Below, in pieces: positions 4,512-18,271 of a stretch of 64,000 nt of DNA. Numbering within the stretch: the stretch's first letter is position 1; each line of letters starts with the position of its first letter. The notes beneath the pieces are model-generated. The model was given only the letters and a program-made list of their open reading frames with translations. It searched no databases and was not told the origin of the DNA. Source of the stretch: Alteromonas macleodii ATCC 27126 (GTDB lineage: Bacteria; Pseudomonadota; Gammaproteobacteria; Enterobacterales; Alteromonadaceae); contig NC_018632.1 in the NCBI RefSeq assembly GCF_000172635.2, positions 3,100,001 to 3,164,000 on the forward strand. The letters are read 5' to 3'. Made by a program: the position numbers and the translations under genes.

Positions 4512-6014
4512 ATGACAACACCACACCGAATTGTTATTGCTGGAGGCGGCACAGCAGGTTGGATGGCTGCCAACCTTTTAGCTCACCGCTGGGCTAATCA
4601 AGCTGTGACCATCACACTCATAGAATCAGAAGACATTGGCACAATAGGCGTAGGCGAAGGCTCGACACCTACTCTCAAGCGTTTCTTCCAAACTCTTGAT
4701 ATTCCCGAGTATGATTGGATGGAAGAGTGCCAAGCAACGTATAAAGTTAATATCAAGTTCACGGGCTGGAATGGCAATAATTCACACAGCTACTCTCATC
4801 CCTTTATTAGCCAGCTAGATGTTTTTAGTGAACGGGCATTTCACGTTAATGCCTTAACCAGAAGGCTGGGTCTCGATGTTGAAACTCGACCTGATAAGTT
4901 TCTTATGGCGGGGTATTTGGCAAAGAAAAACCTTGCCCCTCTTCCCTCACATAATTTTCCATTCGATATAGAATACGGCTACCACTTTGACTCTCTAAAA
5001 CTTGGACGATTCTTACGCGAGCTCGCTAAATCAAAAGGCGTATATCACGTTGTTGGTAATATTGAATCGGTGCATACCTCACCATCTGGCGACATTTCAC
5101 ATCTCGTTTGTCAAGACGGACAAAAACTTGATGGAGATCTGTTCATAGATTGCACGGGTTTTTCAGGACTCCTTTTACAAAAGACGCTAGGCGTACCGTT
5201 TAGGGACTTTAGTGACAACCTATTCAATGACTCGGCCGTTGTGTTGCCTACACCAGCATGCGCTAATTTACCGGTTGAAACCGAGTCGGTTGCCATGTCG
5301 AACGGTTGGCGTTGGCAGATACCGCTTCGCAACCGCACGGGAAACGGATATGTGTATAGTCAGCAGTACCAAGAGAAAGACGCTGCAGAATGTGAATTGC
5401 GACGCGCATTGGGGATGGAAAATACCGACGTTGAAGCAAAGCATTTATCTATGCGTGTAGGTCAATGTGAAAGACACTGGGAGAAGAATTGTCTTGCACT
5501 AGGCTTATCGCAAGGGTTTATTGAGCCTTTAGAAGCAACGGCACTACACCTAGTTCAAACGAGCATCGAGCTTTTCGCGGACAACTATTCTTTCAACGAA
5601 ACAAGTGCTCAACAGAGACAGGCGTTTAATCGGGAAGTTTCAGAGCGCTTTGAACGCGTCCGAGATTATATCGTGTGTCATTACAAGCTAAACGGGCGCA
5701 ACGACAGTGACTATTGGAGAGACAACAGAGCTAACATGAAGCTGTCCGAATCACTGCTTAGTTTACTTGATGTGTGGTACAGAAAAGGGGATATTGTTGA
5801 GGAAATAAAGCGGCAAGGTATTGGTCGACATTTCAGCACTACGTCATGGCACTGTTTGTTGTCTGGCTATGGTGTATACCCGCCACCGGCACTCAATCAG
5901 CCCGCTTCTTTGAAGGAAAGCGGCGATCTTTTTGAAGAAAAGAAACTTGCCGCATTTTTTAATCGCTGCTCGTTAAACTTTGATAAGCAATCTGCCTTAT
6001 TTAACGCGGGCTGA
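4512..6014 (+). CDS. Flavin-dependent tryptophan halogenase family protein
   Basis: A 500-residue FAD protein of the tryptophan halogenase (PrnA-like) family. An N-terminal dinucleotide fold (GGGTAGWMAA, residues 11-20) is followed by GVGEGSTPTL (about 46-55). The lysine that matches the catalytic Lys79 of PrnA is present in YKVNIKF (K82). The family signature WRWQIP is at about residue 265, and the segment holding the active-site glutamate, FIEPLEAT, is near 337. All key motifs are therefore intact. Genes of this family commonly sit beside TonB-dependent receptors in sugar-utilisation loci of Alteromonadales, Xanthomonadales and Caulobacter, where no halogenated product is known. Real halogenation is possible but not shown. 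It converges on the LacI-type gene, 15 bases away. Confidence 0.9.
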   Translation: MTTPHRIVIAGGGTAGWMAANLLAHRWANQAVTITLIESEDIGTIGVGEGSTPTLKRFFQTLDIPEYDWMEECQATYKVNIKFTGWNGNNSHSYSHPFISQLDVFSERAFHVNALTRRLGLDVETRPDKFLMAGYLAKKNLAPLPSHNFPFDIEYGYHFDSLKLGRFLRELAKSKGVYHVVGNIESVHTSPSGDISHLVCQDGQKLDGDLFIDCTGFSGLLLQKTLGVPFRDFSDNLFNDSAVVLPTPACANLPVETESVAMSNGWRWQIPLRNRTGNGYVYSQQYQEKDAAECELRRALGMENTDVEAKHLSMRVGQCERHWEKNCLALGLSQGFIEPLEATALHLVQTSIELFADNYSFNETSAQQRQAFNREVSERFERVRDYIVCHYKLNGRNDSDYWRDNRANMKLSESLLSLLDVWYRKGDIVEEIKRQGIGRHFSTTSWHCLLSGYGVYPPPALNQPASLKESGDLFEEKKLAAFFNRCSLNFDKQSALFNAG

Positions 6015-6032
6015 ACCTCTTGGCTCAGCCTA
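6009..6032. terminator. Short hairpin between convergent halogenase and lacI-type genes
   Basis: GGCTGA at the end of the halogenase gene pairs with TCAGCC about ten bases later, filling the space between two convergent stop codons. The stem is short (6 bp) and lacks a T-tract, so termination strength is doubtful. Confidence 0.35.
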
Positions 6033-7055
6033 TACCGTCTCGCCGACTTGCAATTCAAAAGGCAGCGTACTCTTTGCTGTTACTTGATTAAGCAATGCTT
6101 TTGTTGCTTCTACGCCTTTGCCACTGCTGGATTGGCAAACTGTAGTAAGACGCGGGCGCGCACGCTCGGCTTCCCCAATACCATCAAACCCTGTAATTTT
6201 CAGCTCTTCCGGTACCTTAATATTCATATCCAAGGCTAAGTGAAGTAGCTCAAGTGCTATAATGTCACTCATACACAAAACCACATTAGGTCTTGGAGAG
6301 CTGGTCAGTACTTCTTTGGCTGCCTGTCTTGCAAAGTGTCTGTCACTTTCTGGAAGGTGCCAAATACGCTCATTGCTTACCGTGATGTTCTTTTCTTCAG
6401 CGGCCCTTAAATAACCATCAAGTCGACGGTGAGCAATTGAGCTGTCTACGTCAATCAACGGACTATCGTAAATACGACATGTAGAAGGCGAGTCAATCAG
6501 GCGAAGCCCAAAGATTGCCACATTGTCACCTTCATTTAACGCATGAGACGCAACGCGATAGGCCGCCTCTTCGTTATCAATATTAATAGATGGCTTGTCT
6601 TCGATATCAAAGTCAACGGTGACCACAGGTTTTGGCGACACTGCCAACTCCGCTACCAAGTTGCTGTTGCGCGGTTGTCCGTAACAGATAAAACCATCAA
6701 CAAAATCTACAACATCAAGAATGCTGTCAGAGTCGCCCGCGTACAGTAACAAATGCTTGCCATTTTCTTGAAGCGCAGAAGAAACACCTTTAATAAAAGT
6801 ACTCGCGACGGGGTCACTCACCATATATGAAATGCTGTCGGCTAATACTAAAGCCACAATATTTGATGTGCCCTTTCTGAGGATCTGTGCTGCTTTATTG
6901 GGGCCGCTGTAACCAATCTTTTTGCACTGCGCTAAAATCTCTTCGCGCTTCGCTTTTGATAATTGGTCCGGGCGGTTAAATGCATTTGAAATGGTTGCCG
7001 TTGAAACGCCCAACTGTTCAGCAACATCTTTTAGGGTAAGTTTTGTTTTATTCAT
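6030..7055 (-). CDS. LacI-family transcriptional regulator
   Basis: A 341-residue repressor with an N-terminal LacI helix-turn-helix (LTLKDVAEQLGVSTATISNAF, about residues 6-27) and the hinge region, followed by a periplasmic-binding-protein-like effector domain (about 60-330) with the usual TGFDGIGEAERARPRLTTV segment. It probably represses the neighbouring receptor and halogenase-like genes until a sugar inducer binds. A perfect CG-centred 12-bp palindrome upstream (7153-7164) suggests autoregulation, and a related site lies in front of the receptor. The effector is unknown. It is transcribed in the same direction as upp, but a terminator-like hairpin separates them. Confidence 0.94.
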   Translation of the reverse strand: MNKTKLTLKDVAEQLGVSTATISNAFNRPDQLSKAKREEILAQCKKIGYSGPNKAAQILRKGTSNIVALVLADSISYMVSDPVASTFIKGVSSALQENGKHLLLYAGDSDSILDVVDFVDGFICYGQPRNSNLVAELAVSPKPVVTVDFDIEDKPSINIDNEEAAYRVASHALNEGDNVAIFGLRLIDSPSTCRIYDSPLIDVDSSIAHRRLDGYLRAAEEKNITVSNERIWHLPESDRHFARQAAKEVLTSSPRPNVVLCMSDIIALELLHLALDMNIKVPEELKITGFDGIGEAERARPRLTTVCQSSSGKGVEATKALLNQVTAKSTLPFELQVGETV

Positions 7056-7105
7056 TATTTTTAGCTCTTTTCACGAAACTAACTACCCAGATTTAAAAAC
7101 AAAAA

Positions 7106-7135
7106 AGGGTAGCAAGCGTGCGCTCTGACTACCCT
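7106..7135 (-). terminator. Intrinsic terminator between upp and the lacI-type gene
   Basis: On the minus strand AGGGTAG (7135-7129) pairs with CTACCCT (7112-7106), followed by a T-rich tract at 7105-7096. It would terminate upp transcription. A third segment, GGGTAG on the minus strand at 7088-7083, could instead pair with the middle segment, giving an alternative fold in the leader of the lacI-type gene. Confidence 0.6.
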
Positions 7136-7152
7136 CTGACTATATCATTAAC

Positions 7153-7164
7153 TTAAACGTTTAA
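7153..7164. promoter_or_regulatory. Candidate LacI-family operator (perfect 12-bp palindrome)
   Basis: TTAAACGTTTAA is perfectly symmetric around a central CG, the standard form of LacI-family operators. It lies about 100 bases upstream of the lacI-type start codon. The likely ligand is the adjacent regulator itself. Confidence 0.5.
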
Positions 7165-7240
7165 CGCGTGAAATTTAGCGCTAATTCGATGAGTTGTGTA
7201 ACAAATTGCTCAATGGCTTAATTTTTAGAGATTTTCGCTC

Positions 7241-7870
7241 TTAGCGCGTGCCAAAGATTTTGTCTCCAGCATCTCCTAATCCCGGTAGGATATAGCCTTT
7301 CTCATTCAATCTATCATCGATTGCGGCGGTAAAGATATCAACATCAGGGTGTGCTTCAACAACGGCTTTAATGCCTTCAGGCGCAGCAACAAGGAATAGT
7401 CCCATTATTCTTCGACACCCTTTCTTTTTCAGAAGGTCGATTGTTGCAATCAACGTACCGCCTGTTGCCAGCATGGGGTCAACAATCAGTGCGGTACGTT
7501 CATCAATGTTTTTTACTACCTTGTCAAAATAGGCAACTGGCTGCAGTGTATCTTCATCACGGTACAGACCGACTACACTAATCTTCGCATTTGGAATAAG
7601 TTCCAGTACGCCTTCAAGCATACCTAAGCCAGCACGAAGAATAGGGACAACAGTAATTTTCTTACCTTTAATTTGTCTTACTTCTACCTCATCCCCCGAC
7701 CAGCTTTTAATCGTCGCTCTTTCAGTAGGCAGTGTTCGCGTTGCTTCATAAGTCAGAAGGTTCCCTACTTCAGAGGCAAGCTCGCGAAAATCTTTGCTGC
7801 TAATTTTAGCGTATCGCATAAGCCCTAGTTTGTGCGCAATAAGCGGGTGGGTAATTTCGTGAACGGCCAT
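7241..7870 (-). CDS. upp: Uracil phosphoribosyltransferase
   Basis: Converts uracil and PRPP to UMP in pyrimidine salvage. The length (209 residues) is standard. Visible hallmarks are [16 protein letters not shown] (about 78-93), the PRPP-binding loop [22 protein letters not shown] (about 128-149, with the acidic residue before PMLATGGT) and the C-terminal uracil-binding stretch [17 protein letters not shown]. An AAGGAGTC ribosome-binding site is visible before the ATG on the minus strand. It is a housekeeping gene; no uracil permease lies beside it here. A terminator-like hairpin follows at 7135-7106. Confidence 0.97.
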
Positions 7871-8198
7871 GTAAGACTCCTTGTAATCGATTTAGCTATA
7901 TTTTAACCCAGAAGTATTTTAGTTAAAGCGATTAGTCGTAAAAATATGTTTATTCAATGCTTTAAAACTCCACATCAACGCTAGACAGAGTGGATAAATG
8001 CTATAACCTAGTGCGTAGGCTATAGCCACAGTTCGTGGCGCAATTCACGATCATGAATGTATAGCGCTCGCTATGAATTGTCGTAGTTACGCGCTAATGA
8101 GATCGATTGAGAAAGTTTCAGGAAGTTCAATTTTCTCATAACAGCCGAATCAAACTTACTATTCAAACCATGTTTATCTATGTCAAAAGGAATTGTTT
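7871..8198. other. Intergenic region between divergent upp and pectinacetylesterase-like gene
   Basis: About 330 bases with no credible open frame. It must hold the promoters for both divergent genes. Several short dyads (for example around 8010-8030 and 8055-8095) are visible, none strong enough to name. Confidence 0.5.
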
Positions 8199-9482
8199 AT
8201 GCATTCTTACGCTAAACGTTTTCGCTATTTTGCTGTAATGGCACTGAGTTTCTGTGCCCATAATGCCTTTGCACAATGGGAGCAAATCACTCCTGAAAAT
8301 GAGGTGGTGGTATCAGTACCTGGCGGCGGTGAAAAAACCGTTTACCCATCATGTTCTCTTCCTGCTTTACCGGGACCAGAGGGGTTAGCACCCAACCCAT
8401 TCTCGTTTTATTTCGAAAAAGGAGAAAGTGATAACCTACTTATCTATTTTAATGGTGGTGGCGCCTGCTGGGACAGTGCCACTTGCTTAGCGTCAATGCA
8501 GCTTGAGTTTGACGACAACCCGATGTCGCGAGCCGCTTATAACCCATCAGCCGTAATCGAAAATACGCCATTTATTTCAGGCGGAATATTTGAAGATACA
8601 CAAGAGAACCCTTTTCAAACTTGGTCAAAAGTTTTCATTCCCTACTGTACTGGCGACCTACACTTAGGCTCAAAAGACACGCAGTACGTTGACGAGCTTG
8701 GTATCGTTACAGGTCTACCTGGTGCCGAAGTTACTTTAAAGCACCGTGGTCACGACAACGCGCTAGTTGTTATGCAGTGGATTAAAGAAAAACTGAACAA
8801 CGATGATTTATCACCCAACAAAGTGCTACTCAGTGGAAGCAGTGCGGGCGGTTATGGTGCAACGTTCAACTTCCCCTACTTTCAATCGCTGTTTGGTCGC
8901 ACAAAGGTTGCCCTCTTCGCTGATGCGTCGCTTGGTGTTATATCCCGAGGCTTTACGCAAACAGTACTAAACTATCAAGGGCCATGGGGGATAGAAGATA
9001 CACTACCACGTAATTTCCAATCACTGATTGGCAATTTTAACCATCTAATGCTCAATAAGCAGGTGATGCTGCGATTAGCTTATCAGTACCCTTGGAACCG
9101 TTTTGCGCAATATTCAACAGGAACCGACATTGTTCAAATTCAGTTTTCTAAAATCTCTGATCAGGTCTCTAGAGGTAATTTAGACCCAACGACATGGGGT
9201 GTAACAGAATCTGATTTAGGCTACATACTTGGCTGGCAGCTTCAGGCTAATGCGTCACTTCATGCGCTGTCAGCTTTCACATGGAATTATCAATTTTACC
9301 TTGGTGAAGGCACCTGCCACATGGTGCTAAACGATTTTTGTGAAGATAATGCCTTCCCAGTATCCTCACCTAGCCCATTTTATAATGAGCAGAGTGCGCG
9401 GGGTATTTCCTTTAACGAATGGCTACACACGTTTGCTACGTCACGCCGCTTTAGAGAAAATAGCGCGGCATACTATCACTAG
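8199..9482 (+). CDS. Secreted pectinacetylesterase/Notum-family hydrolase
   Basis: A 427-residue protein with a signal peptide ending near residue 26 (CAHNAFAQ). It matches the pectinacetylesterase/Notum fold: LLIYFNGGGACW (oxyanion-hole region, about 82-93), the conserved cysteines, IPYCTGDLHLG (about 148), the nucleophile motif SGSSAGGYGA (about 210-219) and a late catalytic histidine in EGTCHMVL (about 373-380). The ATG at 8199 is chosen because AAAAGG lies 8 bases before it; a TTG two codons earlier is less likely. The probable role is deacetylation of acetylated polysaccharide or related esters outside the cytoplasm. The 3' 378 bases and the following 146 bases are exactly repeated immediately downstream. 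Confidence 0.85.
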   Translation: MHSYAKRFRYFAVMALSFCAHNAFAQWEQITPENEVVVSVPGGGEKTVYPSCSLPALPGPEGLAPNPFSFYFEKGESDNLLIYFNGGGACWDSATCLASMQLEFDDNPMSRAAYNPSAVIENTPFISGGIFEDTQENPFQTWSKVFIPYCTGDLHLGSKDTQYVDELGIVTGLPGAEVTLKHRGHDNALVVMQWIKEKLNNDDLSPNKVLLSGSSAGGYGATFNFPYFQSLFGRTKVALFADASLGVISRGFTQTVLNYQGPWGIEDTLPRNFQSLIGNFNHLMLNKQVMLRLAYQYPWNRFAQYSTGTDIVQIQFSKISDQVSRGNLDPTTWGVTESDLGYILGWQLQANASLHALSAFTWNYQFYLGEGTCHMVLNDFCEDNAFPVSSPSPFYNEQSARGISFNEWLHTFATSRRFRENSAAYYH

Positions 9483-9628
9483 GATACGTAGTGCGAACTT
9501 GTATTAAAAAGTAATCAATAACATGGCAAGTCCAACCCAGCAGTGGTTGGATTAGCCATATTTATACCTGCGGTAACACGCAGCGATTACGAACATTTTA
9601 AGTCTCGCTGAGTGGGTAATTATCTATG
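9105..9628 (+). repeat. Tandem duplication, copy 1 (524 bp)
   Basis: Covers the end of the pectinacetylesterase-like gene and 146 bases of 3' flank. By eye it is identical, base for base, to 9632-10155 (offset 527), with only three bases (CGG) between the copies. The unit contains a hairpin downstream of the stop codon (TCCAACC pairing with GGTTGGA). Confidence 0.95.
9519..9556 (+). terminator. Hairpins 3' of the pectinacetylesterase-like gene
   Basis: TCCAACC and GGTTGGA form a 7-bp stem with a loop of about seven bases some 48 bases after the stop codon. A second small stem (CTGCG/CGCAG) follows at about 9569-9584. There is no T-tract. The same elements recur in the duplicated copy. Confidence 0.4.
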
Positions 9629-10009
9629 CGGGCGCAATATTCAACAGGAACCGACATTGTTCAAATTCAGTTTTCTAAAATCTCTGATCAGGTCTCTAGA
9701 GGTAATTTAGACCCAACGACATGGGGTGTAACAGAATCTGATTTAGGCTACATACTTGGCTGGCAGCTTCAGGCTAATGCGTCACTTCATGCGCTGTCAG
9801 CTTTCACATGGAATTATCAATTTTACCTTGGTGAAGGCACCTGCCACATGGTGCTAAACGATTTTTGTGAAGATAATGCCTTCCCAGTATCCTCACCTAG
9901 CCCATTTTATAATGAGCAGAGTGCGCGGGGTATTTCCTTTAACGAATGGCTACACACGTTTGCTACGTCACGCCGCTTTAGAGAAAATAGCGCGGCATAC
10001 TATCACTAG
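9626..10009 (+). pseudogene. Duplicated 3' fragment of the pectinacetylesterase-like gene
   Basis: An open frame of 127 codons whose residues 4-127 are identical to the C-terminal 124 residues of the upstream hydrolase. It holds the histidine region but lacks the signal peptide, oxyanion loop and nucleophile serine, so it cannot be an active hydrolase. Its ATG arises only at the duplication junction, and no ribosome-binding site is evident. The perfect identity at third codon positions and in non-coding flank shows a very recent event. Confidence 0.9.
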
Positions 10010-10155
10010 GATACGTAGTGCGAACTTGTATTAAAAAGTAATCAATAACATGGCAAGTCCAACCCAGCAGTGGTTGGATTAGCCATATTTATACCTGCGG
10101 TAACACGCAGCGATTACGAACATTTTAAGTCTCGCTGAGTGGGTAATTATCTATG
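9632..10155 (+). repeat. Tandem duplication, copy 2 (524 bp)
   Basis: Second exact copy of 9105-9628. The right boundary is clear: after TATCTATG the first copy continues into CGG and the repeat, while the second continues into unique sequence (AGGACTGG). Confidence 0.95.
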
Positions 10156-10227
10156 AGGACTGGTATTACAACTAGGATTTGTCGTTCCTTGCTGTGCATT
10201 TATGCAGCAACAAATTAACACGCCCTA

Positions 10228-10449
10228 CTACCCTACTTGTAAAGTAGCGCCATCAGGCATAGTTACTTCAATTTTCATGTTCCCGCCAACCGCAGCTAAA
10301 TATGCAGCCGCACGTTGAAGTGAAACGTCCTGAATACGTTTTGATTCCAACTTACTTACACCAGAAGCTGTGACCGATAACGCCATTGCTACTACTTCCT
10401 GTTTAACTCTGTGCTGCTTTCTGATGTCACCTAGTGTGATTTCTTTCAT
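10228..10449 (-). CDS. Small XRE-type helix-turn-helix protein
   Basis: A 73-residue protein that is almost entirely an XRE/HTH_3-like domain: LGDIRKQHRVKQEVVAMALSV forms the first helices and SGVSKLESKRIQDVSLQRAAAYLAAVGG the recognition and following helices, with a short beta-like end (MKIEVTMPDGATLQV) as seen in HigA/HipB-like antitoxins. No toxin gene is visible on either side, so it may be a solitary regulator or orphan antitoxin. It lies about 28 bases downstream of an intrinsic-terminator-like hairpin, itself preceded by a short aromatic-rich leader frame, so its expression could be set by attenuation. Confidence 0.75.
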   Translation of the reverse strand: MKEITLGDIRKQHRVKQEVVAMALSVTASGVSKLESKRIQDVSLQRAAAYLAAVGGNMKIEVTMPDGATLQVG

Positions 10450-10476
10450 TGTCTTTTACCGAGAATTACGGGCATT

Positions 10477-10512
10477 AAAAAAGCCCAGATGGTGATACCT
10501 TCTGGGCTTTTG
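10477..10512 (-). terminator. Terminator-like hairpin in the leader of the small HTH gene
   Basis: On the minus strand AAAAGCCCAGA pairs with TCTGGGCTTTT (11 bp, ten-base loop), followed by a run of T. It sits about 28 bases before the HTH start codon. A competing 9-bp pairing is possible: CTTCTGGGC (minus strand, at about 10541-10533) with GCCCAGAAG in the 5' arm. This is the terminator/antiterminator arrangement seen in amino-acid attenuators. It may alternatively end the GH97-cupin transcript. Confidence 0.6.
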
Positions 10513-10578
10513 CAAAACGTTCTACCTGCAGTGCCCAGAAGCCAATACTTGCCCCTGAACACCGACGGTCAGGTGCAA

Positions 10579-10623
10579 TCAGTAATTAAAATTATAAAAA
10601 TAACCAGTTGAAACGTTTTGCAT
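10579..10623 (-). CDS. Candidate leader peptide, aromatic-rich
   Basis: A 14-codon frame, MQNVSTGYFYNFNY, followed by a stop. Five of its last seven residues are Tyr or Phe. A purine-rich AAGAG lies seven bases before the ATG. Immediately after the stop comes a dyad (TTGCACCTGA/TCAGGGGCAA with one mismatch), then the antiterminator and terminator segments. The order resembles pheA-type attenuators, but AT-rich DNA yields Tyr, Phe and Asn codons easily, so the peptide may be coincidental. The downstream gene is a small HTH protein, not an aromatic-pathway gene. Confidence 0.4.
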   Translation of the reverse strand: MQNVSTGYFYNFNY

Positions 10624-10815
10624 GATAATTCTCTTTTCACAATGTGCTTGTACAATCGGCCCTTTGCCGCGACTAAGCTAAATGTATTGGCCTCGGTGCT
10701 TTTTAAATATATAGCAGCGGCCTTCTGTCACTTATCCTTAACCATACCATGTAGATAAGCAATAGCAATGACTTTCCAAAAAGGAAAGTGCCGAAAGCCG
10801 GCTATAAGCGCTTTA

Positions 10816-11328
10816 TTAGGCAAGTAGAGGCTTTAAAAAACGTACGTTATCACCCACCGCCGCTTGCTTAAGTGATGCTAGAAAATTGGGGACCTGATCG
10901 CTTCCTTCTTCAGGAGACCAGCTTGCAAAACCTTTATCATCGGTGACTTCGTAAGGCCCTTGTTTAACTTCCATGAAAACTACTGGGCTATGACACACCG
11001 TTGCGTGCCAGGTATTAGGTGGAATCTCAATTCCGCAGGTCTCTCCACGAGCGGTTAGCGTTACTCTGTTTTCGACTTCGCCATCGTCGCTGAAGAATAG
11101 AATGTCTAATTCGCCCTCTACCACCATGAAGAACTCCCACTTATGAGACTGTACATGTCGATGAGGCCGCACGTAGGAGTCAGGCATCATTGCAATAAAC
11201 AAACGCTGTACCATGTCGGTATAAGATTTATGTACGTTCAAATTAGCCCGTCGGCGAGGACTTTCCTCAGCCGACTGTTTAAGCGTTTCAAACAACGCTT
11301 TATCAAAATACTGAATCTTATCCAACAT
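10816..11328 (-). CDS. WbuC-type cupin metalloprotein
   Basis: A 170-residue cupin of the WbuC family. The metal-binding motif is visible as RPHRHVQSHKWEFFMVVEGELD (about residues 55-76; His, His, Glu), and the second histidine motif as IEIPPNTWHATVC (about 106-118). WbuC proteins often accompany surface-polysaccharide genes and their chemistry is not established. The ATG at 11328 is chosen over a GTG one codon earlier, because AGGG precedes it with better spacing. It follows the GH97 gene by 13 bases and is probably translated from the same mRNA. Confidence 0.85.
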   Translation of the reverse strand: MLDKIQYFDKALFETLKQSAEESPRRRANLNVHKSYTDMVQRLFIAMMPDSYVRPHRHVQSHKWEFFMVVEGELDILFFSDDGEVENRVTLTARGETCGIEIPPNTWHATVCHSPVVFMEVKQGPYEVTDDKGFASWSPEEGSDQVPNFLASLKQAAVGDNVRFLKPLLA

Positions 11329-11341
11329 CACACCCTGTCTA

Positions 11342-13405
11342 TTATTGCGCTAGTAATTTAAAGCGTATCGCTCCTCCCCCCGATGGCGCAAGCTTTAATG
11401 ACAAGACATCGGCAGATGTGACTACCTTTTTCTCAATGTTCATTGCGTAGGGGTTTGATTTCCAATGCGCTTTCTCTCCATCTAGATAGAGCTGCGCTTC
11501 ATACTGCTGACCTTCCTCTAGAAAGGTTAGCGGTAGTGATAACTCTCTGGCTTCTTCATTCGTAATTGCACCAACATACCAATCGTTTCCAGAGTAGGAT
11601 TTGTGCTTGCTCGCTTTACGCGCCATTACAATATATTCGCCCACTTCCCCTTGAAGCGCTTTACTATGAGACCAGTCTGTAGGGACGTCTTTGATAAACT
11701 GAAACGCCGGTAAATTATTCTCATAATTACGAGGCAAGTCTGCAGCCATTTGGATAGGGCTGTACAGCACTACATATTGGGCCAGTTGCTTGGCAAGTGT
11801 TGTTTGAGGGCGCATAACCTCTCCTTTGCCCCACTCTATTCCGCCGTCATTTTTCCGAACATAGTCAAAGTTGAAAATGCCAGGTGTGAAATCCATAGGA
11901 CCAGCGAGCATGCGAGTAAACGCCAACATAGGAATATGGTTGGGTGGATTAGGTGCCGCCCACCCTGAGTTGTATTCCTGACCTCGAGCGCTTTCTCGCG
12001 ATATCCAGTTCGGATAAGTACGGCGAAGGCCAGTATCTTTTACCGACTCATGAGTGTTGATAGACAACTGATATTTCGCAGCGGTTGTGACGTTTTTAAT
12101 AAAATGGTTTACCACGTCCTGGCTGTCGGTATATTCATAGCGCAGTACGTTGTTGTCGTCGCGCACTTTGAGATTTTGGCCATGGGCAACATAGCCCGTT
12201 TTAATTTGAGAAACCCCCAGCTTGTTGTACAGGGCAAAACCGTCTTCCATCTGCGCTTCGTAGTTGGTTATTCCTCCTGATGTTTCATGGTGTCCTATTA
12301 ACTTCACGCCAACTTTATCGCCGTAGCTGGTCACCGCTTCAATATCAAAGTCTGGATAGCTTTCTGTGAAAGAAAATAGCTCTGAATTCGCTATCCAATC
12401 ACCATCCCAACCTTTATTCCAACCTTCAACCAATACACCATCAAAACCGTGTTTAGCGGCGAAGTCCATGTATTGCTTTGTGCGCTGAGTAGTAGCACCA
12501 TGCTTATCTCCAGAGCCCCACGTATACTCATCAATGTGCATTCCCCACCAAATACCTATGTATTTGCCTGGCTCAACCCAGCTCACGTCACCGAGCTTAT
12601 TTGGCTCATTAAGATTCAAAACAAGGTACGAATTAATCAAATCCGTTGCGTCATTTCCTAACGTAATAGTGCGCCATGGGGTAACAAAACTACCAGTTTT
12701 ATGCACCAAACTCCCGTCGTGACGAGGTGCCAGCGACGCTGTAAAACGCCCTAACTCTTGCCTTTTAAGGCTCATACCCGCGTAATCAACAAGGGCAGCT
12801 TCATGGATAGCGACATGAGTGCCATTTTCATATTTCACTGTGAATGGCGTGTGAGCGGTGTGAACGTCTTGCAGGTTCGTGGCTTGATACACATACTCAT
12901 ATCTATCTCGACCATGGGCGGGGATCCAAAACGCTTTGGCTTGATGAGAGTTTACCAAGTTGAATTCAGTTAGCTCTCTAGTAATTATTCGATTACCGCT
13001 TGTTGGCAACTCATAGCGAAAGCCGATGCCATCGTTAAAAACTCTTGCCCTTACAAGAAAAGTGCGGTCTTTGTCACTTGGGTTATAGAACTTGACCAAA
13101 AGCTCATTGTGATTGTCGCGAATATCTCGCTGCTCTCCCCACGGCTGCTGCCATGTTTGATCTACAGAGTGCCTGCTCACCTCTTCTACCTCGAAGTCGC
13201 GGTATAAAGGAGGAGCTTTTGCAAAAGTGAAACCAAGCTTACCGAGCCCTAAAACGGGTTCCCCGTTAAATGACACACGATATTGCGCGAGTTCGCCATC
13301 ATCTGTAAACGATAACTTTACTTTTTTATCTGGGGAGAGAACCGATAACTCATTAGCAATTGAAGGCAAGGAGACGGCCAATAGAAGGAGCAAAAATACG
13401 CGCAT
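11342..13405 (-). CDS. Glycoside hydrolase family 97 (alpha-glucosidase-like, secreted)
   Basis: A 687-residue GH97 enzyme with an 18-residue signal peptide (ending SIANE). The N-terminal beta-sandwich (about 20-270) precedes the catalytic barrel with WGMHIDEYTWGSG, GFDGVLVEGWNKGWDGDW, VKLIGHHETSGG and the block SINTHESVKDTG (Glu near residue 453), then RESARGQEYN. In SusB, an inverting GH97, a glutamate occupies the NTHE-type position, so the inverting alpha-glucoside type is favoured over the retaining alpha-galactosidase type. It probably releases glucose from alpha-glucans in the periplasm. It heads a two-gene unit with the WbuC cupin. A perfect 14-bp palindrome lies upstream (13474-13487). 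Confidence 0.92.
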   Translation of the reverse strand: MRVFLLLLLAVSLPSIANELSVLSPDKKVKLSFTDDGELAQYRVSFNGEPVLGLGKLGFTFAKAPPLYRDFEVEEVSRHSVDQTWQQPWGEQRDIRDNHNELLVKFYNPSDKDRTFLVRARVFNDGIGFRYELPTSGNRIITRELTEFNLVNSHQAKAFWIPAHGRDRYEYVYQATNLQDVHTAHTPFTVKYENGTHVAIHEAALVDYAGMSLKRQELGRFTASLAPRHDGSLVHKTGSFVTPWRTITLGNDATDLINSYLVLNLNEPNKLGDVSWVEPGKYIGIWWGMHIDEYTWGSGDKHGATTQRTKQYMDFAAKHGFDGVLVEGWNKGWDGDWIANSELFSFTESYPDFDIEAVTSYGDKVGVKLIGHHETSGGITNYEAQMEDGFALYNKLGVSQIKTGYVAHGQNLKVRDDNNVLRYEYTDSQDVVNHFIKNVTTAAKYQLSINTHESVKDTGLRRTYPNWISRESARGQEYNSGWAAPNPPNHIPMLAFTRMLAGPMDFTPGIFNFDYVRKNDGGIEWGKGEVMRPQTTLAKQLAQYVVLYSPIQMAADLPRNYENNLPAFQFIKDVPTDWSHSKALQGEVGEYIVMARKASKHKSYSGNDWYVGAITNEEARELSLPLTFLEEGQQYEAQLYLDGEKAHWKSNPYAMNIEKKVVTSADVLSLKLAPSGGGAIRFKLLAQ

Positions 13406-14542: not shown

Positions 14543-15331
14543 TTAACGGGTTAATTCATAAGCGCAGATATTCACAGCGCTGGCTAAGTTTAACGAGTCA
14601 ATCTTACCGCTTCCCGCAATGGTATACGCCGTTGCGTTTAGCTTTGATAGTGCGTCAACAGGCACGCCACGGGCTTCGTTACCAAACAGATAACACTGAT
14701 AATCACCAAAGGTGTTAGAGGTGATATTACTACCATTCATATCCAAGAAAGCGAAACGTTCGAACCGCTCGCCTAGGCTTTCAAGCGCTACGTTTAATTC
14801 CATGTTCACATGGAAAATAGCCCCCATACTTGAGCGTACAGCTTTCGAGTTATAAGGGTCCACACTGTTCGGGCTTAGTAATAGCGTAAAATCACCAAGC
14901 CACGCTAGCGTTCTTAGTATGGTGCCTAAGTTGCCGGGGTCTTGAACTTCATACAAATAAATGTACTTTTCGGCACTGGATTTGTTTGCTGAAATGCTGG
15001 TTTGTGACCGCTCTGAATATAACGCGGAGTTAGGAAGTGGAACGCGAGCAATAATACCTTGAGGTGACTTAGTATCGCTGAGTTGCTGCATTTGTTGAGA
15101 CGATACCGTTTCTACCTTCATATTAGAGACTGAAGAATCAAGTTTTTCTTTCAGCCACGCCTCATAATCAGCTGTCACATAAAGGGTTATATCACCTAAT
15201 GTACTGCTGTCATGCTGAGCAACATTAATTAACTCTAAAACTAAGTGCTCTCCTTCCACCAAATAGAATCCGAACTGCGTTCTAAATTTCTTTTGATGAA
15301 GCTTTTTCACGTCACTTAGTTTCATTTGCAC
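14543..15331 (-). CDS. TrmH/SpoU-family RNA methyltransferase
   Basis: A 262-residue SPOUT-class RNA 2'-O-methyltransferase. The N-terminal substrate-binding part (KKLHQKKFRTQFGFYLVEGEHLVLEL, residues about 9-34) is typical of the TrmH group. The knotted SAM domain carries YEVQDPGNLGTILRTLAW (motif 1, about 132-149), FGNEARGVP (motif 2, about 211-219) and the closing SLNLASAVNICAYEL (motif 3). It could modify 23S rRNA or tRNA; the target cannot be fixed by eye. It lies directly upstream of ylqF on the minus strand and is probably co-transcribed with it. Confidence 0.9.
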   Translation of the reverse strand: MQMKLSDVKKLHQKKFRTQFGFYLVEGEHLVLELINVAQHDSSTLGDITLYVTADYEAWLKEKLDSSVSNMKVETVSSQQMQQLSDTKSPQGIIARVPLPNSALYSERSQTSISANKSSAEKYIYLYEVQDPGNLGTILRTLAWLGDFTLLLSPNSVDPYNSKAVRSSMGAIFHVNMELNVALESLGERFERFAFLDMNGSNITSNTFGDYQCYLFGNEARGVPVDALSKLNATAYTIAGSGKIDSLNLASAVNICAYELTR

Positions 15332-15462
15332 TGCCCTTTTTATAACTTTCGGCGCAAGTGTAAGGTATGAAACCCAAAACGCAAAGCGGCAACGCTTAAT
15401 AGCGAAACAAATAATGAGAGAAAAAGATTGTAGTGGAGAAATACAGGATAAAGGAGAGTATC

Positions 15463-15499
15463 AAAAAGGCGTTTCAAATATACTTGTAAACGCCTTTTT
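15463..15499 (-). terminator. Strong terminator after the double-glycine peptide operon
   Basis: AAAAAGGCGTTT (15463-15474) and AAACGCCTTTTT (15488-15499) form a perfect 12-bp stem with a T-run on either strand, three bases past the stop codon of the 101-residue gene. It can end transcription in both directions. Confidence 0.88.
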
Positions 15500-15501
15500 A
15501 A

Positions 15502-15807
15502 TTACCGAGATACCAAGACACCTAAAGCGTTCCAACGTTTGCGTGGCTCACCAATTGGAATACATAAGCAGGCCTCTTCTTTTTCACTTGGTAAAATCTG
15601 ACATACAACATTTGCACTTTTAAACTCGTGAGCAAGTTCTGTTGCAAATATTTCCGTCACACCTTCCACCAGCACAAACTCGTTTTGCTTTTTCAACGCT
15701 GTAGCCAACTCTTCTACCGCTTTTAGTGAAAGCGGCCATAAAGTACGCAATACTCTTAACGATGCAACTGAGGTGATATCGCCACCAAGAATTTGTACTT
15801 TAAACAT
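15502..15807 (-). CDS. Unrecognised 101-residue partner of the double-glycine peptide
   Basis: The frame begins four bases after the stop codon of the 93-residue peptide gene and ends at a strong terminator, so the two genes form a closed two-gene unit. There is no signal peptide or membrane segment, so it is not a typical membrane-anchored bacteriocin immunity protein. The stretch PLSLKAVEELATALKKQNEFVLVEGVTEIFATELAHEFKSANVVCQIL recalls the alpha/beta pattern of the ribosomal L7/L12 C-terminal (ClpS-like) fold, but this is a weak visual resemblance. Two cysteines occur near the end (EEACLC). Function unknown; immunity, chaperone or maturation roles are all possible. Confidence 0.7.
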   Translation of the reverse strand: MFKVQILGGDITSVASLRVLRTLWPLSLKAVEELATALKKQNEFVLVEGVTEIFATELAHEFKSANVVCQILPSEKEEACLCIPIGEPRKRWNALGVLVSR

Positions 15808-15811
15808 TGAA

Positions 15812-16093
15812 TTACTCGTCTAATGTTGTTGCTTCTTGAGTATCATCACTCGTTGACGCTAATGACGTGCCAGCGGCAAATCCACCTGCGCCTGCTAAAC
15901 CAATACCAACGACACCAACTCCGATTTCACCAAGCGTTGCAGCGCCCGCAAGAGCAATGGGCACAGTTGCTAACCCTGCTGTGCCAACAATGGCAATACC
16001 CAAACCAATCATAGCAATGCCAACGCCTAGCTGCTCCCAACCATCAAAGCCGCCGGACACCATTTCAATTTCACTTGTATTTAACTCTTTCAT
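15812..16093 (-). CDS. Double-glycine-leader, Gly/Ala-rich bacteriocin-like peptide
   Basis: A 93-residue precursor. Residues 1-15 (MKELNTSEIEMVSGG) match a double-glycine leader, with the expected E-L, E-I and V-S-G-G positions. Cleavage after GG would release a 78-residue peptide made of Gly, Ala, Ile, Val and Leu with GxxxG-type spacing (GVGIAMIGLGIAIVG and GVGVVGIGLAGAGG), no cysteine, and an acidic Ser/Thr-rich tail (STSDDTQEATTLDE). This is the design of class II microcins and two-peptide bacteriocins, exported by peptidase-containing ABC transporters. AAGGAAATGTAA gives a good ribosome-binding site. No exporter gene is nearby, so export would rely on a transporter elsewhere. Confidence 0.8.
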   Translation of the reverse strand: MKELNTSEIEMVSGGFDGWEQLGVGIAMIGLGIAIVGTAGLATVPIALAGAATLGEIGVGVVGIGLAGAGGFAAGTSLASTSDDTQEATTLDE

Positions 16094-16114
16094 TTACATT
16101 TCCTTGTTTTATTA

Positions 16115-16131
16115 GGCTTCCATTCGAAGCC
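16115..16131 (-). other. Leader hairpin of the double-glycine peptide operon
   Basis: GGCTTC and GAAGCC form a 6-bp stem with a five-base loop, ending about 20 bases before the start codon on the minus strand. It is too close to the gene to be an upstream terminator and may affect mRNA stability or translation. Confidence 0.35.
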
Positions 16132-16237
16132 AAAAACAGGGTAAAAAATGGAATAACAAATAGAAACTGTTCGATGGACGGGTTTTAACACTTAAGAGCT
16201 AAAGCACCGTCCAAACTGGTTTGGTTCGCTTTTTTTC

Positions 16238-18271
16238 CTACTGTTGGTCAGCTACAACATAAATTTCACCGTCGTAAATACCTTGGACGGTAAGCTTCTG
16301 GCTTGCCAGTGCCTGAAGGTAATCAATATGCGCTTGTTCCACTTTCTGTCCAGGAACAATAAGCGGAATACCAGGCGGATACGGTGTAATTAAACCTGCT
16401 GCAGTGCGTCCAACGCTGTTTTGCCATGGAATGGCTTCCCTAGGGCTGAAAAACGCTTTTGACGGAAGGTCGTCTAAATGAATTGGCGGAATGTCTGCCG
16501 GTAACGGACTCTTGCTCTTGCGCTTGCTTAGGTTAACGGCGCCATCATCAAGACGTTTTAACGCGTTGTATAGCCTTACAATTTTAGAGCGCATTCCACC
16601 TAGCGTAAGCAGTACTAGAATAGTGCTATGAGTAAACTTCTCGATTTCTAAACCAACTTCGTCCATTAAGAAACGATGTATTTCTTGGTTTGAATAATCA
16701 AGCGCCGATACGTCAATTAAGATTTTAAGCGGATCATGCCCAATGTTGTCACTTTCAAAGTGAGAAAACATATTCGCAAAGTCACTAGGCGAAAGTATTT
16801 TAAGTCGCTTAAACTTGGCCATTTGCGATTTGAGTTCGGCAACATTGCTCAATAGCTCATTAAGGATTTTGTAGCCTTCCATTTCCAGCTGCTGACGACA
16901 TACATCAAGCGAAGCAATGAGTTGATACTTGGGCGAGGTACTGGTGTGAATTGCAAACACTTCTTTAAAAAAGTCTTTATCGAAATCTGGATCGTTTACA
17001 TGAATAAAGGATGCTTGCGAGAACGCCGACACCACTTTGTGCGCAGAGTGAGTAATATAGTCTGCCCCAGCGGCGATAGCCGAGTAATCACGCAATGCAG
17101 GATGGAACAAGGAATACGCAAACCATGCTTCGTCAATGAACACTTTAATGCCATGCTCGTGGGCTAAATTTACGACTTGCTTAAGGTCAGTCAATAACCC
17201 GTCGTAGGTACAGCCCGTCAGTACGATAAGTTTAGCGTCAGTATTTTCTTCAATAAGCTGCTTAATTTGCGCCATTCTAGGCGGTGAGAAAATACCGTAT
17301 TCAGGGTTAAATACACTGTCTAAATACACCGGCATGGCTCGCGCCTGAATAATGCCGTAGTGCACTGACTTGTGGCAGTTTCTGTCGGCAATTACTTTGT
17401 CGCCTTCGCGCAACAGCGTCTGCAAAATGATTTTGTTTGATGTCGAAGAGCCGTTCGTGACGAAATAGGAATGACGAACTTCAAATGTATTCGCAACAGC
17501 GGCTTGCGCTTTACCAATAGCGTGAGTGCCATCTGATAGTGAGCCCAGCGAGTCTACGCTTACCGATAAGTCACTAACAAACACGTTACGCCCAAAGAAA
17601 CGATAAAAATCACTGATATAGGGTGAATTTCTAAAGCTTGCGCCACCGCTGTGACCTGGCGTATGCCACGAGTCATTAGACTCTACCACATAGTCTTTAT
17701 ATTCAGTCCAAAACGGCGTTTCGTTTCTATCATCAAAGTCATTGATGATATAACCCAAAATAGACTCTGGGTCTGAAATAATGTCGTTACGATAGAAGAA
17801 CGATTCAATGCCATTGGCTTGGTTTACAATATCCAACCCTTTTACTGCATCGCCTAAGACATACACGGGGAGTTCAGGGCGAATGCGTTTAATGGCGTCG
17901 ATAACTCTGGCGTTATTATCAATAACAGCGTTGCGTGCAGACGACTTTTCGCTTGTAGTTTTCTCGTTCGCGTTTTGTGAACTAACGCTTTCGGCTGCGG
18001 GGCTCGTATTTTCATTAAGTACGCCATTTAATGGCACAACGTCTGTCAGCTCTTTAACCTTCGCCACCACATCCCAGCTAAATACCACAGCTTGAATGTC
18101 ACCGTCTTCACGAACAAATTGTAGTGCCTTTGCAACAGAGTTCGCTTCAAGCAGGCTTATTTCAACGTCACTTCGGTCAAAGTAAGTGACGGTGTTGCCT
18201 ATACTCGAAGTGATTTGTTCCAATAAATCAACAGCATCTTCTATAACAAGAATTTTTAAATGAGGGCGCAT
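16238..18271 (-). CDS. Orn/Lys/Arg decarboxylase-family PLP enzyme
   Basis: A 677-residue fold-type I PLP enzyme of the ornithine/lysine/arginine decarboxylase group. The N-terminal about 165 residues resemble the receiver-like wing domain of this family (ILVIEDAVDLLEQI at 9-22), with a Ser/Thr/Asn-rich insert near 95-115. The PLP domain shows FVTNGSSTSNK (about 271), DRNCHKSVHYG, FIDEAWFAYS (PLP-ring aspartate) and SAHKVVSAFSQ with the Schiff-base lysine at residue 412. The C-terminal domain includes AAGLITPYPPGIPLIVPG. Such enzymes make cadaverine, putrescine or agmatine, consuming protons. The substrate cannot be set by eye. It is transcribed alone and ends about 145 bases before the bacteriocin-like operon. 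Confidence 0.88.
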   Translation of the reverse strand: MRPHLKILVIEDAVDLLEQITSSIGNTVTYFDRSDVEISLLEANSVAKALQFVREDGDIQAVVFSWDVVAKVKELTDVVPLNGVLNENTSPAAESVSSQNANEKTTSEKSSARNAVIDNNARVIDAIKRIRPELPVYVLGDAVKGLDIVNQANGIESFFYRNDIISDPESILGYIINDFDDRNETPFWTEYKDYVVESNDSWHTPGHSGGASFRNSPYISDFYRFFGRNVFVSDLSVSVDSLGSLSDGTHAIGKAQAAVANTFEVRHSYFVTNGSSTSNKIILQTLLREGDKVIADRNCHKSVHYGIIQARAMPVYLDSVFNPEYGIFSPPRMAQIKQLIEENTDAKLIVLTGCTYDGLLTDLKQVVNLAHEHGIKVFIDEAWFAYSLFHPALRDYSAIAAGADYITHSAHKVVSAFSQASFIHVNDPDFDKDFFKEVFAIHTSTSPKYQLIASLDVCRQQLEMEGYKILNELLSNVAELKSQMAKFKRLKILSPSDFANMFSHFESDNIGHDPLKILIDVSALDYSNQEIHRFLMDEVGLEIEKFTHSTILVLLTLGGMRSKIVRLYNALKRLDDGAVNLSKRKSKSPLPADIPPIHLDDLPSKAFFSPREAIPWQNSVGRTAAGLITPYPPGIPLIVPGQKVEQAHIDYLQALASQKLTVQGIYDGEIYVVADQQ

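Follow-up and report, generated by a model that had tools for sequence, protein, structure and literature searches.

A double-glycine-leader peptide gene of Alteromonas macleodii paired with a small soluble partner of predicted L7/L12-like fold

Two short consecutive genes in the genome of Alteromonas macleodii ATCC 27126 (4,653,851 bases, single contig) raise the question whether a peptide with a double-glycine (GG) leader is made here for export, and what the small soluble protein encoded directly behind it does for the producing cell. The pair was analysed within a window of 64 kb, by which we mean the whole stretch of DNA under study, and is listed together with its signals and flanking genes in Table 1. 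An earlier interpretation made from the letters alone, here called the sequence-only reading, had pointed to the pair. Most of what it had observed proved to be real, and its interpretation was supported in part.

Table 1. Features of the peptide-partner unit and its flanks (positions in the window)
Feature	Position	Strand	Basis
GG-leader peptide gene, 93 aa	15812..16093	minus	ORF; homologues in Alteromonas genomes and protein databases; dN/dS 0.02-0.25
Double-glycine leader, 15 residues, MKELNTSEIEMVSGG	16049..16093	minus	read from ORF; GG kept in aligned relatives
Mature part, 78 residues, hydrophobic Gly/Ala core, acidic tail ending DE	15815..16048	minus	composition, glycine spacing
Partner gene, 101 aa, soluble	15502..15807	minus	ORF; hydropathy, predicted fold, profile comparison
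Shine-Dalgarno-like AAGGAA of the peptide gene	16100..16105	minus	read from sequence; six bases before ATG
Intrinsic terminator, 12-bp stem and U run	15463..15499	minus	folding and shuffles
Orn/Lys/Arg decarboxylase-like protein, upstream flank, outside the unit	16238..18271	minus	Pfam-type domain match
SpoU-family RNA methyltransferase, downstream flank, outside the unit	14543..15331	minus	Pfam-type domain match

The ribosome-binding site and the second gene, which follows the first after four bases, were found as the sequence-only reading had described them. The strong terminator it had placed behind the pair is confirmed by folding, as the 56-base stretch reaches -20.8 kcal/mol (z -6.2) and none of 200 shuffles was as good. 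The hairpin is missing from the list of a simple terminator scan, probably as its arms are farther apart than the loop limit of that scan allows. Promoter-like sites occur at chance level (two, with 1.5 expected).

The leader of the peptide is indeed of the double-glycine kind and 15 residues long. Homologues without GG had been named as the finding that would speak against it; all aligned relatives of the window peptide carry the motif. The description of the product as Gly/Ala-rich and cysteine-free is also accurate, with 17 Gly and 14 Ala in the 78 mature residues, which begin with FDGWEQ, and no Cys, and so is that of the acidic tail, which comprises the last 12 residues of a peptide with a net charge of -8. 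Two hydrophobic segments with a mean KD of at least 1.6 are present. The predicted model consists of two long helices of low confidence (pLDDT 57) and is too poor for interpretation. The claimed GxxxG spacing did not hold: the exact motif is depleted, occurring once against a shuffle mean of 3.4, and the label of a glycine zipper was therefore dropped for the window peptide. Glycine at i+5 is enriched in the first 62 mature residues (10 compared with 4.1 expected, a value reached in 0 of 1000 shuffles), this spacing having been chosen after inspection of several. The same enrichment is seen in P0001, P0002, P0005 and L006-L008 (at most 7 of 1000 shuffles) and more weakly in P0007, and by the shuffle test it is absent in P0008-P0010 and L009.

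With a GG leader and a mature part below 10 kDa the product resembles the class II microcins. The MccV profile (Pfam PF17508) gives 18.8 bits with the window peptide, which is under the Pfam cut-off of 27 bits; it is stronger in some relatives, five of the ten family members being matched at E <= 1 and the best at 1.6e-6. A search of the window peptide against NCBIfam gave no match at E <= 1. For the partner, searches of Pfam, NCBIfam and PHROGs gave no family. The hydrophobic peptide might also act on the membrane of its own cell as part of an intracellular toxin-antitoxin system, its GG motif being without significance. Two short genes that overlap or abut, a terminator and a patchy distribution would fit such a system, but the leader is retained in all aligned relatives and exporter genes lie beside some of them, and we regard it as very improbable.

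The pair is found in six Alteromonas genomes (G000, G035, G010, G033, G767 and G797) and in a record of Alteromonas sp. MMG017 (L021). The partner search was positive in 4 of 60 genomes and in 4 of 395 genomes of the family, which makes six different ones, and the partner always lies beside the peptide. Five of the 60 genomes were positive in the peptide search, the fifth (G021) with a distant short peptide. The peptide profile identified 17 of the 395 family genomes, among them the four partner genomes at E < 1e-31. Neither the partner nor a close peptide occurs alone among the genomes searched. In the class-wide (369 genomes) and order-wide (394 genomes) searches the peptide profile revealed no further strong member, matches outside the window having E values of 1e-4 or worse. 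Plasmid records gave no match for the DNA of the pair, the peptide or P0009, and phage records none for the partner. In the protein database the peptide has 11 relatives at E <= 0.001; P0007-P0010 have the core in common with it and lack the -DE end. For the partner there are 30 at E <= 0.01, and the entries that name a source are annotated as hypothetical protein or carry nothing but coordinates.

The start of the partner relative to the peptide varies, with an overlap of eight bases in G035 and a gap of eight in G010, G033, G767 and G797. The order peptide-partner is constant in all six genomes and in two different gene neighbourhoods, and this makes it extremely improbable that the two are unrelated conserved genes brought together by chance or linked by nothing but a common promoter. 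In the window and in G035 the pair has the decarboxylase gene on one side and the methyltransferase gene on the other; in G010 and G033 it is two frames away from the same methyltransferase, with other genes alongside. In G001 the two flanking genes are less than 100 bases apart and the pair is absent; in G020, G008 and G019 two other genes (about 412 and 262-294 residues) stand between them. The pair is therefore tied to one variable region, in which its occurrence is patchy. The stretch 15332-16237 of the window and the equivalent place in relatives are variable, and almost empty in G001.

With comparisons of saturated dS set aside, dN/dS is 0.02-0.25 for the peptide (eight comparisons) and 0.05-0.23 for the partner (seven comparisons), values by which both genes are under purifying selection. 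Because of these low ratios and the same-order pairs in other genomes, the unit is beyond chance. Between lineages the identity of the peptide is 70 and 63-65%, that of the partner 46 and 38-39%. The sequence-only reading had expected variable core peptides in related strains; the opposite is seen, as the core is the best conserved part of the peptide (identical positions between window and G035: core 43 of 56, leader 8 of 15, tail 14 of 22). A core strongly conserved across lineages would suit a secreted signal or a surface or matrix component, with the partner sensing or buffering the peptide. A hydrophobic mature peptide of 78-85 residues would be rather long as a signal, however, and no regulator is conspicuous by eye among the neighbouring ORFs, so that a non-toxic role of this kind seems improbable.

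The novelty of the unit is the predicted fold of the partner. That it is soluble and not of the membrane type, as had been claimed, is borne out by hydropathy, which shows no hydrophobic segment and a maximum KD of 1.01 in a 19-residue window. The predicted model of residues 1-72 resembles the C-terminal domain (CTD) of L7/L12 (pLDDT 89.5) and has the beta-alpha-alpha-beta-alpha-beta order of the bL12 CTD. The profile-profile comparison with the L12 CTD reached a score of 27.1 and a probability of 54%, and 60 column shuffles stayed at or below 15.8; the ranking of L12 and ClpS profiles was not blind, as the ORF set had been enriched for both by targeted searches. PF00542 itself gave no match at E <= 1 in the 16 members of the partner family, which by the Pfam measure lies outside the bL12 CTD family. 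In the PDB the partner profile matched L7/L12 chains over 65-70 residues with E values of 0.13-1.2, which are not significant alone. Together these comparisons point, by modest margins, to the L7/L12 CTD as the fold of the predicted model.

Other candidates were examined. The best PDB matches of the partner profile were entries named Rab family protein (E 1.4e-4, and 0.0026 in another search). They cover a single repeated stretch of some 28 residues that reads like a leucine-rich repeat, and were rejected because the predicted partner fold is not a repeat and the L7/L12 matches extend over a much longer part of the protein. CLP1_N and similar weak Pfam-type matches are at chance level. The N-degron adaptor ClpS (PF02617) scored 17.3 against a shuffle maximum of 15.2 in an alignment of 16 rows and 17.0 against 20.5 in one of 23 rows, and in this larger alignment it does not exceed shuffled columns.

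Compared with bL12 the partner is without the N-terminal dimerisation domain and has an extra C-terminal tail with the conserved positions P84, R89, K90, W92 and L98. An ordinary bL12 and an ordinary ClpS are encoded elsewhere in the source genome. In the L12 alignment R21 and R/K18 of the partner stand opposite R73 and K70, and K65 and K84 are not kept; we take these to be positions of E. coli L12 with a role in the binding of translational GTPases. It is conceivable, and in our opinion quite improbable, that the partner is a captured L7/L12 CTD which still engages the targets of L12, a translational GTPase or the ribosomal stalk. If so, a secreted membrane peptide would be paired with a mimic of the ribosomal stalk, and the mimic would couple the synthesis of a hydrophobic precursor to its export or shield the translation machinery of the producer. 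We know of no bacteriocin self-protection or quality control of this kind, and the literature covered showed none.

Distant relatives of the peptide occur across the Alteromonadaceae, mostly at E values of 1e-3 to 1e-7, and have the 15-residue GG leader and the first helix in common. Of 14 loci scored in 11 genomes, 13 have a next frame with a hydrophobic segment of transmembrane (TM) type, the exception being G732b; the scoring used a 19-residue window with a mean of at least 1.6, all frames are mechanical ORFs, and five of the 13, with fewer than 50 residues each, are perhaps no genes. Dropped from this count were L036 (no peptide parsed), L037 (match inside a large enzyme ORF), L024, L025 and L159 (matches in long frames, internal stop), L009 (the same locus as L035), and L029 and L160, which were read by eye and not scored. 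Short hydrophobic next frames were also read by eye in G684 and G050. In G198 and in G684 the peptide has an HlyD gene next to it, and in G702 an ABC ATPase gene. By its position the partner probably occupies the slot of a putative immunity gene. The acidic -DE end is present in all six peptides with the L12-like partner and in none of the 14 other scored peptides, which counts as a single contrast and not as six, because the six peptides form one clade. The family offers a clean comparison among the scored Alteromonadaceae loci, the same export signal and first helix being combined with different partners, soluble in one clade and mostly membrane-type elsewhere.

Two of these loci are of interest in themselves. 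In G198 (L023, 40-2965) genes for HlyD, an 85-aa GG peptide, a 52-aa TM-type frame and a CAAX-protease-like membrane protein follow each other, and to judge from the gene content this is a microcin-like locus in another genus of the Alteromonadaceae. The Alteromonas genome G777 encodes three different GG peptides of the wider family (L028, L040 and L043), each followed by its own small TM-type frame.

The sequence-only reading had noticed that no exporter is encoded nearby and had proposed one encoded elsewhere. Both points agree with the genome search, in which PF03412 (peptidase C39) has three matches at E <= 0.001, all outside the 64-kb window and none within it. The strongest (125.5 bits) is a C39-ABC protein with HlyD upstream, 0.9 Mb from the unit, so that a C39 ABC exporter as used by class II microcins is present in the genome. 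It adjoins a GG precursor of its own and a RimK-like ATP-grasp gene; the clear exporter being distant and beside its own precursor, the window peptide would have to be exported in trans. Strong C39 matches exist in all six genomes with the pair, and G033 has no C39 match besides the equivalent exporter. Co-occurrence with an exporter was tested as support for the unit and is uninformative, because 37 of the 39 Alteromonas genomes searched contain a C39 match at E < 1e-30.

We tentatively favour, at somewhat less than even probability, a class II microcin-like peptide which is exported in trans, and a cytosolic partner for self-protection. The GG leader would be recognised and cleaved by a peptidase-C39 ABC exporter encoded elsewhere, for which the genome contains a suitable candidate. 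The freed 78-residue Gly-rich peptide, probably two helices, may to judge from its composition insert in or aggregate on the membranes of other cells. The partner would most likely act within the producing cell and shield it by attaching to the peptide or to the peptide's target, with the L12-CTD-like domain and the conserved basic tail at the C terminus as binding parts; this protection, like export and activity, is what we infer. In favour of self-protection are the joint occurrence in six genomes with the partner always beside the peptide, the TM-type next frames at nearly all distant loci and the exporter genes beside some of them. It is weakened by a peptide more conserved than its partner, which is unusual for toxin/immunity pairs, by the lack of an orphan partner among the genomes searched, by the MccV score under the cut-off, and by the solubility of the partner, since class II microcin immunity proteins tend towards the inner membrane according to PMC9746304.

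A close rival, which we consider rather unlikely, sees in the partner a pre-export chaperone or export adaptor that binds the hydrophobic precursor in the cytosol, prevents its aggregation or insertion and hands it over to the C39 exporter. As no exporter is linked to the unit, a delivery factor would be plausible. The partner is soluble, co-occurs with the peptide and is adjacent to it, the core of the peptide is more conserved than the partner, the acidic tail of the peptide could face the basic conserved tail RKRW of the partner, and the related ClpS fold belongs to an adaptor. The distant peptides nevertheless get by without a protein of this kind, the frame at that position being mostly of TM type, and the sequence similarity to ClpS does not rise above column shuffles in the larger alignment. 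Thus the comparison with the TM-type relatives favours immunity and the conservation pattern favours pre-export handling. The unit would represent a second route to immunity or else a protein dedicated to handling hydrophobic precursors, and since the host genus is easily grown both readings of the partner are testable.

With class II microcins and colicin V the unit shares the 15-residue GG leader, the small peptide, the small next gene, and the C39 ABC exporter with HlyD in the genome. It differs in its subthreshold MccV match, the missing linkage to an exporter, the conserved core, and the soluble L12-like partner in place of a membrane immunity protein, which in class II microcins usually has TM helices. 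Immunity proteins of the pediocin-like kind are soluble and cytosolic. A crystal structure of a pediocin-like immunity protein exists (PMC1904221). The closest described system found is Cdz of Caulobacter (CdzC/CdzD/CdzI; PMC5380434), in which small Gly-rich peptides of 84-86 aa leave the cell by type I secretion and an immunity gene is present. The small, hydrophobic, Gly-rich peptide of exported type is common to both, export being predicted here. Cdz has two peptides with GxxxG glycine zippers, exporter genes linked to them and an inner-membrane immunity protein with three TM segments, whereas the window unit has one peptide, a distant exporter, depleted GxxxG and a soluble partner. Another GG-peptide island is that of the Neisseria Nap peptides (PMC11798529). 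PMC8749424 and PMC7680869 are, as far as their available parts go, unrelated to the unit. In the literature covered, which is a part of the whole, no paper describes this unit or reports an L12-like protein as the partner of a GG peptide.

Some further C39 loci were observed on the way. Of the weaker matches in the source genome, L018 (G000:C1:1070000-1085000, 7737-9896; 38.6 bits, frame of 719-721 residues) begins at profile position 15, the first 14 positions being missing, and is perhaps a degenerate C39-like domain; L019 (G000:C1:4580000-4592000, 5660-6589; 21 bits) is a lipoprotein-like protein of 309 aa. L013 (G000:C1:4017000-4035000, 7530-12733) comprises HlyD, C39-ABC, a small LuxR-type regulator, a short GG precursor ending in KEPVYITMAIGEGGGKLPDILS, and a RimK-like ATP-grasp protein. 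An exporter with a similar precursor and an ATP-grasp-sized gene was recognised by gene size in G010, G033, G767, G797 and G020 as well. From their gene content loci of this type are likely modified-peptide clusters, presumably to be called graspetide-like. Another C39 exporter locus, L147 (G035:C5:126000-143000, 6381-12405), in which no ATP-grasp-sized gene was noticed among the listed ORFs between exporter and precursor, encodes a different GG precursor of 57 aa.
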